In this document: positions 1-24,919 of the stretch, one piece after another
Layout: the number at the start of each line of letters is the position of its first letter
Numbering within the stretch: the stretch's first letter is position 1
IMG/VR virus record: IMGVR_UViG_3300037882_000279
Location: 1-25,922 of that record
Length of the DNA stretch: 25,922 nucleotides
Source of the DNA: a virus
Direction: 5' to 3' (one strand)
The notes under the pieces: generated by a model
The model's input: the letters and a program-made list of their open reading frames with translations, nothing else
The model's database searches: none
What the model was told of the DNA's origin: nothing
Position numbers and translations under genes: made by a program

Positions 1-422
1 ATCGGGCTTAGACCCATAATGTCGTTGTATTCCTTGTTGTTCTTTGACTTCTTAATAGCTACGTTAATCATGCCTTCACAACCAAGTAACGAAACCAAAG
101 AGAATTTTTCCGCTTGCTCGTCTGTCATTTTAATAGCAAACCATGCGTTAAGCATTTTTCTAAGGTTAGCGTTTGAATGCATTGAGAACAAGAATTCACG
201 AGACACAATAAAAGGCTTATCATTGTCTTTTTCGTTTTTAGTTTTTGATAATTCCCAATAGATTTTTACCTGTCTTTTACGGCTTACATGGCCTTCAAAA
301 TCGTGGTCTATTGTACCTAGTTCTACAACTCCGATACATACACCTAAGTGGTTACCAGCAGGGGCAAGGACGAACGTACCTCCGATGTCTCCTGTCATTT
401 CTTCATTAGCGTATTTGCTCAT
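1..422 (-). CDS. Partial phage protein, probably ssDNA-binding/DNA-metabolism type (runs off the left edge)
   Basis: An open frame starts at ATG 422 (MSKYANEEMTGDIGGTFVLA...) and runs 140 codons without a stop to the window edge, so the C-terminus is missing. The start lies 34 bp after the stop of the Ala-repeat gene, so the two may be cotranscribed. The order of blocks (a 'PAGNHLGVCIGVVELG' strand, a charged 'YWELSKTK' strand, then a helical 'NLRKMLNAWF...MTDEQAEKF' segment and 'LLGCEGMINVAIKK') resembles phage OB-fold ssDNA-binding or replication-associated proteins found among early genes. That assignment is from memory of the family pattern and is moderate at best. Its place after the lysis genes suggests that the early/replication region begins here. 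Confidence 0.8.
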   Translation of the reverse strand, partial: MSKYANEEMTGDIGGTFVLAPAGNHLGVCIGVVELGTIDHDFEGHVSRKRQVKIYWELSKTKNEKDNDKPFIVSREFLFSMHSNANLRKMLNAWFAIKMTDEQAEKFSLVSLLGCEGMINVAIKKSKNNKEYNDIMGLSP

Positions 423-456: not shown

Positions 457-1122
457 TTATTTTTTGGGAATTGTGAAATACTTACGGCAAATATCTGCGC
501 ATTGCTTTAGTACTTTTGACCTAGCAGCAGCAGCAGCATAAGCAGCAGCATAAGCAGCAGCAGCAGCATTAGCAGCAGCAGCAGCATTAGCAGCAGCATA
601 AGCATTAGCAGCAGCATAAGCAGCATTAGCAGCATAAGCAGCAGCATAAGCAGCAGCATAAGCAGCAGCATAAGCAGCATTAGCAGCATTAGCAGCAGCA
701 TTAGCAGCATTAGCAGCAGCATAAGCAGCAGCAGAAGCATTAGCAGCAGCATAAGCAGCAGCAGCAGCATTAGCAGCAGCAGCAGCATTAGCAGCAGCAT
801 AAGCAGCATTAGCAGCATTTTGAAGTTCTTCATCTGTGGCTTCGTTATTAGCCCAAGCCCAAGCAACTTTCAATGCTATTTTACTACGCTCGTCTGTCAT
901 TAAATGCACAACCAAGTTAGCACACTCAACTTTCACCTTAGTGATAGTTTTAATGTCAGGGTATCCAGAATGACCACGCTTATGTTCTCTAAAAAACCAC
1001 CAAAGCAACCAATCTCCACGGTCACATTCTGCCAAGCATTGTTCTTCTGTTCGATCTTCAAGCCAGTGCAAAGCTTCTTCGCAAGCACCGTAACTTTTTA
1101 ATTTTTCTTTAAAAGTAGGCAT
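457..1122 (-). CDS. Alanine-repeat protein of the 'putative immunity protein' (Imm5-like) type
   Basis: A 221-residue protein in three parts. Residues 1-100 are an ordinary globular region with the block 'ACEEALHWLEDRTEEQ...ECDRGDWLLWW'. Residues about 101-200 are almost pure Ala with Asn, Tyr or (once) Ser every 3, 4 or 6 positions. Residues 200-221 form a short tail (VLKQCADICRKYF). The CxxAxxWL / DRGDWLLW head, Ala-rich helical middle and 'LxxCADxxRK' tail are the pattern I know from proteins annotated 'putative immunity protein' (Imm5-like). That functional name is computational, and the role in a phage is unknown. In the repeat every Ala codon is GCT, Asn AAT and Tyr TAT, which suggests growth by slippage. 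It is transcribed from its own promoter at 1149-1180, which lies inside a duplicated operator. No neighbouring toxin gene is visible. Confidence 0.85.
   Translation of the reverse strand: MPTFKEKLKSYGACEEALHWLEDRTEEQCLAECDRGDWLLWWFFREHKRGHSGYPDIKTITKVKVECANLVVHLMTDERSKIALKVAWAWANNEATDEELQNAANAAYAAANAAAAANAAAAAYAAANASAAAYAAANAANAAANAANAAYAAAYAAAYAAAYAANAAYAAANAYAAANAAAAANAAAAAYAAAYAAAAARSKVLKQCADICRKYFTIPKK
523..818. repeat. GCT/AAT/TAT trinucleotide repeat tract inside the Ala-repeat gene
   Basis: About 296 bp built only from AGC, ATA, ATT and one AGA triplets on the plus strand (Ala, Tyr, Asn and Ser codons on the coding strand). Around 633-675 a 12-bp unit (AGCAGCAGCATA) repeats about four times without change. 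A longer block encoding Tyr-Ala3-Asn-Ala5-Asn-Ala5-Tyr-Ala3 occurs twice, near both ends of the tract, so there has also been segmental duplication. All unit lengths are multiples of 3, so length changes would keep the frame. Other frames also stay open across it (poly-Leu on the same strand), but these are shadows. Confidence 0.95.
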
Positions 1123-1142: not shown

Positions 1143-1190
1143 TTTAAGCAAACTTATATCAAAAAATATTGCTATCAAAATATTTTGATA
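1143..1190. promoter_or_regulatory. Operator copy 1 with overlapping promoter (upstream of the Ala-repeat gene)
   Basis: A 48-bp element that matches 1469-1516 at 45 of 48 positions. It holds a perfect 18-bp palindrome, TATCAAAATATTTTGATA (1173-1190), and an adjoining imperfect one (1157-1174, TATCAAAAAATATTGCTA). On the minus strand TTTTG (1180-1176), 19 bp of spacer and TAAGTTTG (1156-1149) fit the Bacteroidota TTTG / TAnnTTTG promoter. A start near 1142 would leave a leader of about 20 nt before ATG 1122. A protein bound to the palindromes would cover -33 and the spacer, so repression is the simplest reading. The binding protein is inferred to be the HTH product of the gene next door. Confidence 0.75.
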
Positions 1191-1192
1191 TT

Positions 1193-1456
1193 TTATTTTG
1201 ACATTATTTTTCCGTCTGCTAAGTCTTGCAAAAATTTATTGCCTGTAGCAATCATGCTTTTATTAAGGTAAGCGTGATTCTTAGGGTTTTTGTAGTTCAT
1301 GAACCTACTCAATGAGCTACTAGACACATCCATTTTAGCAGCGATAAAATCCTGCTTTAACTTTGTGTCTTTCAACTTTTTAACAAGTTCTTTTGCTTCT
1401 TTCAAAAGCTGTTTATTAACAGAAGCAGGCTTCGATGTATCGTTTGTGTTTGGCAT
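1193..1456 (-). CDS. Small helix-turn-helix DNA-binding protein, probable autoregulator
   Basis: An 87-residue basic protein. Residues 15-34 form a Lys-rich amphipathic helix. Residues 35-60 (QDFIAAKMDVSSSSLSRFM...) have the spacing of a repressor-type helix-turn-helix, with SSSSLSRFM as the likely recognition helix. There is no other domain. It lies between two near-identical palindromic operator-promoters: copy 2 is 12 bp upstream of its own ATG, and copy 1 begins right after its stop and drives the next gene. This layout suggests that it controls itself and the Ala-repeat gene; that is inference, since no binding is shown. It is separated from the lysis operon by a strong terminator. It could act as a lysogeny or early/late switch or simply as a local regulator. 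Confidence 0.8.
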   Translation of the reverse strand: MPNTNDTSKPASVNKQLLKEAKELVKKLKDTKLKQDFIAAKMDVSSSSLSRFMNYKNPKNHAYLNKSMIATGNKFLQDLADGKIMSK

Positions 1457-1468
1457 AATAGTTTAAAT

Positions 1469-1516
1469 TTTAAACAAACATATATCAAAAAATATTGATA
1501 TCAAAATATTTTGATA
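1469..1516. promoter_or_regulatory. Operator copy 2 with overlapping promoter (upstream of the HTH gene)
   Basis: Near-identical partner of 1143-1190. Palindromes lie at 1483-1500 (TATCAAAAAATATTGATA) and 1499-1516 (TATCAAAATATTTTGATA, perfect), sharing their TA. On the minus strand TTTTG (1506-1502), a 19-bp spacer and TATGTTTG (1482-1475) match TTTG-N19-TAnnTTTG with no mismatch. The expected start near 1468 leaves only about 12 nt before ATG 1456. The element begins directly after the T-tract of the late terminator, so it isolates the HTH gene as its own transcription unit. Confidence 0.75.
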
Positions 1517-1555
1517 AAAAAAATAACCCCGTGGCGCAGGAGGTCGCACACGGGG
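1517..1555 (-). terminator. Strong intrinsic terminator closing the lysis/late transcript
   Basis: The arms CCCCGTG (1527-1533) and CACGGGG (1549-1555) pair, with an inner GCG/CGC pair (1534-1536 with 1545-1547) and a loop around AGGAGG. On the minus strand the stem is followed by TTATTTTTTTT. It lies 22 bp after the stop of the last lysis gene (1578). Confidence 0.85.
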
Positions 1556-22638: not shown

Positions 22639-22950
22639 ATGAAAAAAAGCATAGGAATTATCTTTTCGGCTTTACTGAGCTTGGCTCTGTTACTGACCGC
22701 ATGCAGTGAAAGTAAATTTCAAAGTGAAAAAGTAGACAAGCAGTCAGTCGACACCGTCGATTATAGCGACTCTATCAAAATTCAATTGAATGACACTTTG
22801 CAACACTCGTACCTTGAAATTGCACCGCAATACGCAATGTACGAAGAAAAAGAAAAACAAGTATTTGTGTTCCATCCTTACGTAATCAAGCGTAATGCGT
22901 TAAGAGAGCCAATACGTGTAAGGCAAAATTATATACGCAATAACTGTTGA
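22639..22950 (+). CDS. Small lipoprotein on the opposite strand ('moron')
   Basis: A 103-residue protein. The signal peptide MKKSIGIIFSALLSLALLLTAC has a lipobox LTA-C (Cys22). The mature part starts CSESKFQSEK and ends with a basic tail (RVRQNYIRNN-C). It is the only plus-strand gene supported in the window and lies between terL and the gpW-like gene with its own upstream gap and downstream terminator, the layout of a moron. Phage-encoded lipoproteins of this size are known to block superinfection (such as T5 Llp) or alter the host surface. The exact role is not visible. After Cys22 residues SES are followed by K/E/D, compatible with Bacteroidota surface export, but weakly. Confidence 0.85.
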   Translation: MKKSIGIIFSALLSLALLLTACSESKFQSEKVDKQSVDTVDYSDSIKIQLNDTLQHSYLEIAPQYAMYEEKEKQVFVFHPYVIKRNALREPIRVRQNYIRNNC

Positions 22951-22970
22951 GTTCATTAAAGACAAAAATA

Positions 22971-22998
22971 AAAAAGCCACTATTTTAGTGGCTTTTTT
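22971..22998. terminator. Bidirectional intrinsic terminator between lipoprotein gene and terL
   Basis: GCCACTA (22976-22982) pairs with TAGTGGC (22986-22992) around a 3-nt loop, extended by A5 (22971-22975) with T6 (22993-22998). U-tracts result on both strands. It lies 20 bp after the lipoprotein stop and 2 bp after terL's stop, so it serves both convergent genes. Confidence 0.85.
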
Positions 22999-22999
22999 A

Positions 23000-24919
23000 T
23001 TACCAAAAATCATTGCTTCGCTTCACCTTTTTTACTTTTTTCTTTGCTTGCTGAGATTCTGAAACCTGCGCAGGTTTTATATTTTTCTCCTTATTATTCA
23101 CTTGCTTATCACGTAGTTTCTGCCAGCTGTCTTTTGATAAACGATCCATGCCTAATACTGCTGCTGCTGCACGAGCATATACCCGACAATCTAAAGGCTC
23201 GTTTCGATCATAATGTTTTTCCCAGACATACTGTTTGTAACCTCGAACTACTTTTAACGTCAAACGCTCTGCTGTCATACCTTTGAAGTACTCTGCATTG
23301 TACTCTGGAAAATGCATATACCCGTTAGGTATTTCTGTTTCTATTTTTTCTTGACGCATCCAACCGTATAACTCACTTTTTACAACCGATACACCAACAT
23401 GCCAAAGCTTAATTGTTCCTACTTTCCTTCCGTCTTTTTGCTTTACGTCTACAGACGTAGGAGTACGTACAGTGGTTACTTGTTTGTCTTGACCCTTTAC
23501 AGGTATTACACGACTTGGATCGAATCTACGACAGAATGTGTATACTTCCGTTGTGTTATACCCGGTGTCAATTGCAGTAAGACGTATAGGCAAAATTGTA
23601 CCGTCTTCCTTTTCATAATGTTTATCAATATGCTGTGCGAATTCATCCCAAACCTTTTTGTTAGAAGTGTCACCATTAAAAACTAAATATTCAATACTGT
23701 ATGATCGCTTGCCTTCACACCAGCCCACTACTTCAGCCTCTATACGGTCACGCTGAACGTCTGCACCCATCGTAATGAAAACAACATCTTCAGCAACGCT
23801 ACCAACATCGTATTTTTCTCTACGATTGTATAAATTTTCCCACGGTGGTGTATCTGTTTTTTCTGCAAATGACAATCCAAGAACTGTATTTACAAACGTC
23901 CTTAATTTTACAGGGTCGTCTTTTACAATTTCATATTCTTCTACAATTTGTTTCCAAGACAACCAACCCAAAGGAGAGTAAAGACCGTTTATAATAAAAC
24001 CGATTACATCTTTTCTGCTCAACTCTGGTTCCGTCGCTAACCATTCTGCTGTGCCTCCGAAACCTTTTTCAAGTAGAAATTTTGCTTTGTGTCTTTCGTC
24101 AATCAATGCACCACAGTGCGCACATTCATATTTTACTGTATGAGGTTTTCCAGCCTCCCACTTTAAACCCTCGAATTCTAAAGCTTGACCTCCACCCTCA
24201 CAACATGGAAGATTAACAAAATATTTTTGCTTATCCGTTTTTTCTATTTCTGTTTCAATCGCAGATTGTCCAGTAATTGTAGGAGTAGAAAGAATGAATA
24301 TTTTTTTATTGCTAAAAGTAATGGTACGCTTTTTAGCAAGCTCCATTGGTGAACCTTCATTGTCAACATTGATAGGATAGCGATCTACTTCGTCCATTAT
24401 CAATACACGTATAGGACGTGACGACAATTCCGCAGCACTATTCGCACCTGTTAAAATTACAATACCACCTGCAAAACTTTTTTCAAGTACTGTGTTATTT
24501 GCGTCACGCTCCCTGCTTGGTTTTACCTTTGCATTAAGATTAGGACACATGTCAATCATTGGCTGTAACCTTGACTTACTAAAGCCTTTTGCCATGTTGA
24601 CCGTAGGCATTATATACATTATTGGACATGGTGAAATATCCATATAAGTACCTAAGGCATTTAATCCAGCTTCACTGAAACCTTGTTGCGAAGCCTTCTG
24701 CGCAATGACTTCTTTATATGTAGAAGTAGGCGAAAGACAATCTAATATTTTACGCAAATACGGTGTACGCTCTGTTCTCCAACGCCCCGGACTACTACTG
24801 CTTTCTGAAGAAAGAAAACGGTTTGCGTCGCTCCACTCGCTACAAGTTAGTAAAGGCGTAGGTTTTAACCCATCTTTAAAAGCTTGTATGATTTGATCGC
24901 TATAATTATAACCTATCAT
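23000..24919 (-). CDS. terL: Terminase large subunit, lambda gpA-type
   Basis: A 639-residue protein. Residues 27-60 (EWSDANRFLSSESSSSPGRW...PYLRKILD) match the gpA N-terminus. The ATPase has 'QKASQQGFSEAG' at 74-85: Lys75, Gly80 and Ser82 sit like the KSARVGYSK P-loop of lambda gpA, without the usual GK[T/S] lysine. Walker B is 'VLIMDEVDRYP' (Asp176-Glu177). A Cys-rich segment (PCCEGGGQ...YECAHCG, about residues 240-275) suits the zinc finger region. The nuclease half shows 'ITMGADVQRDRIEAEVVGW', 'TAIDTGYNTTEVYTFC' and 'EPLDCRVYARAA'. It packages DNA and cuts cos in lambda-like phages. Its ATG overlaps the upstream small ORF's stop as ATGA. Confidence 0.95.
   Translation of the reverse strand: MIGYNYSDQIIQAFKDGLKPTPLLTCSEWSDANRFLSSESSSSPGRWRTERTPYLRKILDCLSPTSTYKEVIAQKASQQGFSEAGLNALGTYMDISPCPIMYIMPTVNMAKGFSKSRLQPMIDMCPNLNAKVKPSRERDANNTVLEKSFAGGIVILTGANSAAELSSRPIRVLIMDEVDRYPINVDNEGSPMELAKKRTITFSNKKIFILSTPTITGQSAIETEIEKTDKQKYFVNLPCCEGGGQALEFEGLKWEAGKPHTVKYECAHCGALIDERHKAKFLLEKGFGGTAEWLATEPELSRKDVIGFIINGLYSPLGWLSWKQIVEEYEIVKDDPVKLRTFVNTVLGLSFAEKTDTPPWENLYNRREKYDVGSVAEDVVFITMGADVQRDRIEAEVVGWCEGKRSYSIEYLVFNGDTSNKKVWDEFAQHIDKHYEKEDGTILPIRLTAIDTGYNTTEVYTFCRRFDPSRVIPVKGQDKQVTTVRTPTSVDVKQKDGRKVGTIKLWHVGVSVVKSELYGWMRQEKIETEIPNGYMHFPEYNAEYFKGMTAERLTLKVVRGYKQYVWEKHYDRNEPLDCRVYARAAAAVLGMDRLSKDSWQKLRDKQVNNKEKNIKPAQVSESQQAKKKVKKVKRSNDFW

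Follow-up and report, generated by a model that had tools for sequence, protein, structure and literature searches.

An 87-amino-acid helix-turn-helix (HTH) protein, encoded between two near-identical composite operator-promoter elements at one edge of a phage late region, is likely to be an XRE-fold, Cro-like autorepressor of early and middle promoters in a contractile-tailed phage that is probably non-lysogenic and probably infects Bacteroidota. The DNA analyzed, referred to below as the window, is the entire 25,922-base IMG/VR record IMGVR_UViG_3300037882_000279. From an anonymous piece of metagenomic phage DNA, the analysis derives a concrete, testable circuit of one protein and a ~44-bp element, with about 19 sites in six phages. 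No such operator system in Bacteroidota phages was found described in the open-access literature, itself an incomplete body of text; the system is a new example of the well-known phage repressor circuits, and establishes no new principle of regulation. The element can be used to mark this phage lineage, and Bacteroidota genetics might also gain a repressible promoter from it.

Architecture of the twin elements

The window contains the late region of a contractile-tailed phage (large terminase phrog_15, portal phrog_21, endolysin, sheath-like and tape-measure-like genes), with all 24 genes of at least 120 amino acids on the minus strand. The HTH gene is bordered on one side by a terminator and the lysis genes, and on the other by a gene for an Ala-repeat protein and a replication initiator gene (Table 1). 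A sequence-only reading of this DNA had proposed that a strong terminator sets the late operon apart, and the stem-loop at 1527-1555 on the minus strand bears this out (-18.4 kcal/mol, z = -4.4, followed by a T tract).

Table 1. Predicted features of the HTH locus, in window coordinates.
Feature	Position	Strand	Basis or remark
Phage replication initiation protein, NGO0469 family, second operon gene	3..422	-	NF046043; cut by contig end
Ala-repeat protein, 221 aa, first gene of controlled operon	457..1122	-	phrog_18326, E 2.2e-6
Early-operon promoter, TTTG-N19-TAAGTTTG	1149..1179	-	predicted start ~1144; spacing rule PMC6847099
O2 of early-operon promoter (putative operator), 3 mismatches	1157..1174	.	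palindrome search
O1 of early-operon promoter (putative operator), perfect palindrome TATCAAAATATTTTGATA	1173..1190	.	palindrome search
87-aa HTH (XRE-fold) protein, proposed autorepressor	1193..1456	-	alignment, AlphaFold model, Foldseek
HTH-gene promoter, TTTG-N19-TATGTTTG	1475..1505	-	predicted start ~1470; spacing rule PMC6847099
O2 of HTH promoter (putative operator), 2 mismatches	1483..1500	.	occupies promoter spacer; 19-site consensus
O1 of HTH promoter (putative operator), perfect 18-bp palindrome TATCAAAATATTTTGATA	1499..1516	.	palindrome search, 19-site consensus
Intrinsic terminator at late-operon/HTH-promoter boundary	1517..1555	-	stem-loop 1527-1555 and T tract

The duplication described in that reading was recomputed and holds in full: 45 of 48 bases are identical between 1143-1190 and 1469-1516, one copy preceding the HTH gene and the other the Ala-repeat gene, and a repeat search delimits the duplicated stretch as 54 nt at 91% identity. 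Each element combines a promoter with two 18-bp palindromes, both built as TATCA-N8-TGATA and set 16 bp apart in register. One palindrome (O1) is perfect in both copies, giving the two longest perfect palindromes of the window, while the adjoining O2 is imperfect. O1 and O2 share 2 bp; the right arm of O1 contributes the -33 TTTG, O2 takes up the 19 bases of the spacer, and the -7 box comes immediately after it. At up to three mismatches the palindrome has four matches in the window versus 0.11 expected, a number never reached in shuffled sequences, and the composite element is significant, with no match at up to three mismatches when 218 kb of first-order Markov sequence is scanned. Identity is high within the element (40/42 between the window copies and 41/42 between the paired copies of a relative, G006) and near background just outside, this sharp drop marking the element itself, rather than a longer segment, as the conserved unit.

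The promoter claimed for each element, TTTG-N19-TAnnTTTG, was recovered exactly and overlaps the palindromes. It corresponds to the Bacteroidota sigma-ABfr consensus, with TTTG near -33 and TAnnTTTG near -7 (PMC6847099, PMC7366714), which is matched exactly by both window copies and by most of the 19 sites discussed below. The pattern TTTG-N18..21-TAnnTTTG occurs exactly twice in 25.9 kb, both times inside the elements, a count that alone is not significant in the window (2 observed vs 1.44 expected). In Flavobacterium the G of the -7 element lies at -5 (PMC6847099), a spacing that predicts the starts in Table 1 in place of the earlier estimates of 1142 and 1468. A G at -9, rare in F. johnsoniae (PMC6847099), is present in both window copies. 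With the same spacing (4 nt past the -7 box), the predicted +1 falls exactly on the A of an ATG at 5 of the 19 sites, supporting promoter function and predicting leaderless early transcripts from these operator-promoters. The ATGs concerned are at 1073, 1587 and 15949 in L018 (the relative G001), at 5444 in L019, and at 41849 in G006.

Related phages and the controlled genes

Relatives were sought in IMG/VR with a composite DNA pattern of 20 specified bases containing no protein information. Seven contigs were recovered. An HTH homologue is encoded by six of them, among which G005, G006 and G007 had been overlooked by the protein-based search. All six have sites on either side of the HTH gene, or of the two-gene operon that contains it, and five carry extra copies deeper in the early region, with the proviso that the relatives form one lineage and these co-occurrences are not independent. 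The comparison thus supports the earlier view of the elements as operator-promoters tied to the HTH gene, which is flanked by them in every relative encoding it, and suggests an element system common to at least six related uncultivated phages. The seventh match (G004, 7 kb) lacks both the left arm and an HTH gene, and was treated as a probable chance occurrence.

The 19 non-redundant sites from six phages define the consensus TATCA-N8-TGA-TATCA-N8-TGATA-TAnnTTTG, in which the palindromes keep a fixed register to the -33 and -7 boxes. The TATCA arm upstream of -33 formed no part of the search pattern and a promoter does not require it, yet it is exact at 15 of the 19 sites; the N8 stretches consist almost entirely of A and T, and their bases differ from phage to phage. 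In G007, the relative that has diverged most, the sites upstream of the HTH gene and at 13.2 kb have a single palindrome; its HTH homologue is only 26% identical over its length, and its half site is the same.

A scan with the 22-base palindrome gave one true relative (L005/G001, 46 kb), related to the window over terminase and portal, whose HTH homologue is 42% identical where the two sequences match (39% when aligned in full) and whose sites lie on both sides of the HTH operon, with further copies downstream; the five remaining contigs (L003, L004 and L006-L008) represent a single repeated coincidence in apparently coding sequence, with no HTH homologue. Retrieval by the tail fibre protein gave 37 loci, in which elements and HTH gene occur only in those of already known carriers and the rest have neither in the sequence retrieved, a weak test in that many loci are short or come from unrelated hosts (e.g. 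L065). Single-sequence protein searches with the HTH protein gave no match in IMG/VR or in annotated phages, and a scan of GTDB species genomes with the composite pattern produced only six single hits, and the sequence retrieved for them contained neither the arm nor an HTH homologue. The HTH profile found no homologue in 396 Bacteroidota genomes, which is weak evidence from a set without a known positive. The promoter type, together with a BT4734-like domain in G001, indicates that the host is probably a member of the Bacteroidota.

In the window, the operon behind the second element runs from the Ala-repeat gene across a gap of 34 nt, in which no terminator was found, into the initiator gene, which matches the NCBIfam model NF046043 with 116 bits (cut-off 75) and is 46% identical to a gene of G001 (1907-2557). 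Initiator homologues are found at the same place in G001 and G006, while the gene between element and initiator varies: the window has the Ala-repeat gene there, G007 one for a Cys-repeat protein, G001 one for an 85-aa protein, and G006 none. The sequence-only reading placed the element in the right class and underestimated its reach. Its compact regulon stands as regards the linkage of the elements to the HTH gene, but its single controlled effector is not supported: the unit continues into the initiator gene, the relatives contain more elements, and the Ala-repeat gene is absent from the slot in those relatives where the slot can be read.

The relatives carry one to three additional copies in the early and middle region. 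Such copies follow a primase-like gene in G001, G005, G006 and G007; in G001 and G007 a copy also follows a gene for a membrane protein that lies upstream of the Pif1 helicase gene (with a single palindrome in G007). Further along its early region, G001 encodes a DUF3799 nuclease-like protein, a Pif1-like helicase and a BT4734/VapE protein that is probably a primase. The late regions of the window, G001 and G006 yielded no composite element. The additional copies imply that the regulon is phage-wide; judged from where the sites lie, it would serve early and middle genes, for which a repressor with a single effector is too narrow a description.

Several observations concern the cargo of these operons and the makeup of the genomes. 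The protein in the slot of G007 has a Cys-x-x repeat (L046:17403-18395), and G005 has a homologue of the N-terminal domain of the Ala-repeat protein (5788-6351 of L040), located in its post-primase operon; a pentapeptide-repeat protein is encoded at another place in the early region of G005 (L040:17434-18375). The slot may be an accessory cargo site for differing repeat-rich proteins. The Ala-repeat protein presumably resembles proteins annotated as 'putative immunity protein', a likeness for which Pfam and NCBIfam gave no support. G005 (L040-L042) shares the early region and HTH regulon with the window, its head and tail genes look different, and it has a plus-strand gene block at 44.5-50.4 kb, an apparent case of modular exchange.

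The HTH protein and comparable regulators

The AlphaFold model of the 87-aa protein comprises five helices (residues 10-30, 35-42, 46-53, 58-63 and 66-80; mean pLDDT 80), consistent with a five-helix XRE-like HTH fold and without a C-terminal oligomerization or cleavage domain. The top Foldseek matches are XRE regulators, P22 c2, HipB and C.Esp1396I, with probabilities up to 0.98 and weak E-values (at least 0.19). No curated family model identifies the protein as HTH, Pfam giving no HTH family at E 0.1 and PHROGs only weak regulator matches (best E 0.00067). In an alignment of six sequences, the predicted helix-turn-helix is the best conserved part.

The closest likeness in organization is to the Cro- and CI-type lambdoid repressors (e.g. 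P22 c2, and PY54 Cro, PMC4488713), which are likewise small XRE-like HTH proteins encoded at the edge of the early region, with palindromic operators over early promoters and control of replication genes; in the six phages described here, the predicted sites overlap both the HTH gene's own promoter and early promoters. By contrast, no second, divergent XRE repressor was recognized at the locus, the sites are at four to five separate promoters that all fire the same way, the two operators share 2 bp and are embedded in a Bacteroidota-type promoter, and no integrase was found. In G001 (L018:346-1016, minus strand) and G003 (L019:4667-5385, minus strand), two genes diverge from the HTH promoter; a family search with the G001 pair found none, and the switch could have a second arm to which such genes belong.

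HipB, the XRE-fold antitoxin of HipBA, binds TATCC-N8-GGATA (PMC3376134), an operator that shares the spacing of TATCA-N8-TGATA and has an almost identical half site, and similarly autoregulates through several operators. Such likeness does not establish that the protein belongs with HipB: no HipA kinase gene lies among the neighbours of the HTH gene, the targets here are phage early operons, and no sequence similarity was detectable with the tools used. The restriction-modification controller C.Esp1396I is likewise a small XRE dimer with several operators and self-regulation (PMC3758141), whereas the elements here cover a phage-wide set of promoters, and no endonuclease or methyltransferase genes are found in the neighbourhood of the HTH gene. 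The best PDB sequence match of the HTH profile, a weak one (E 0.0011), is AcrIIA15, which represses its own transcription (PMC10901769); compared with the N-terminal HTH domain of AcrIIA15 and with Aca regulators, the window protein shares the proposed self-repression, but has no anti-CRISPR domain and would control a replication operon.

Proposed circuit, alternative readings and lifestyle

In the proposed circuit, HTH dimers would bind TATCA-N8-TGATA, occupying O1 over the -33 TTTG and O2 over the spacer up to the -7 box at each controlled promoter, and thereby excluding RNA polymerase. Upon infection the open promoters would fire and the HTH protein accumulate, until it silenced its own promoter, that of the replication operon (start near 1144) and, judging from the relatives, those of further early and middle operons in the part of the genome absent from the contig. 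The elements, their conservation alongside the HTH gene, their distribution in the relatives, the gene content and the terminator are observed; direct binding, the sign of regulation, its timing and a Cro-like lytic mode rather than a lysogeny switch are what we infer; repression in particular is read from operator position and predicted protein fold. A negative circuit is the most likely, since polymerase would be blocked by operators that cover the -33 box and the spacer, and a promoter of this type also drives the HTH gene.

The principal competitor, which we regard as unlikely, is that the protein is a lysogeny (immunity) repressor that silences all early promoters while the phage persists as a prophage or in a carrier state. 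P22 c2 is among its closest folds, and every early promoter found is covered, including that of the replication operon. The missing C-terminal domain in so short a protein speaks against this, as does, in a weak test, the absence of homologues from the Bacteroidota genomes searched. It also disagrees with the gene content of G001, G005, G006 and G007, in which no tyrosine integrase (PF00589), resolvase (PF00239), rve transposase (PF00665) or ParA (PF13614) was found by a search that gave matches in control genomes; terminal overlaps in G001 (70 bp) and G006 (127 bp) suggest that these two genomes are complete. Lysogeny by a route that needs none of these integration and partition functions would be compatible with that result. 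Since these families were not found, a lytic phage whose Cro-like protein limits early transcription is favoured, with moderate confidence, over one with a lysogeny repressor, and the phage is probably non-lysogenic.

The remaining readings carry far less weight. That a host regulator or another phage protein binds the palindromes, the HTH gene being simply one target, gains something from G007, where a strongly diverged homologue accompanies an unchanged half site, but it is improbable given that elements flank the HTH gene in all carriers, that carriers found by DNA alone encode the protein, that its predicted HTH is the best conserved part, and that GTDB composites are limited to six chance-like singletons. 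Activation by the HTH protein, for which controller proteins of similar fold that can both activate and repress offer a precedent (PMC3115060), is slightly more improbable still, as operators over the -33 box and whole spacer normally block polymerase and the promoters match the consensus without help. Three further readings were rejected. Replication-origin iterons for the adjoining NGO0469-type initiator would explain why palindromes adjoin its gene, but the copies are spread over ~15 kb, belong to separate promoters and invariably keep one register relative to the -33 and -7 boxes, which makes this highly improbable; a toxin-antitoxin module is contradicted by the lack of HipA; and a recent short duplication without regulatory meaning, suggested by the 45/48 identity within 326 bp, has a negligible probability, considering the sharp edges of the identity and the retention of the arrangement, with different N8 bases, in divergent phages.

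Building on the Cro-like autorepressor, a wider picture is offered as a tentative proposal: a non-lysogenic lineage of Bacteroidota phages in which nearly every consensus housekeeping-type promoter is placed under one small HTH protein through an operator pair within the promoter, producing a self-limiting early pulse with several leaderless transcripts.

A separate observation concerns a small plus-strand gene located between terminase and portal in the window (22639-22950), which is counter-transcribed and begins with a lipoprotein-like signal sequence; it may have a role of the superinfection-exclusion type. Genes with a signal-like start occupy the same slot in G001 (22887-23339) and G007 (43309-43716), and are only ~24% alike.
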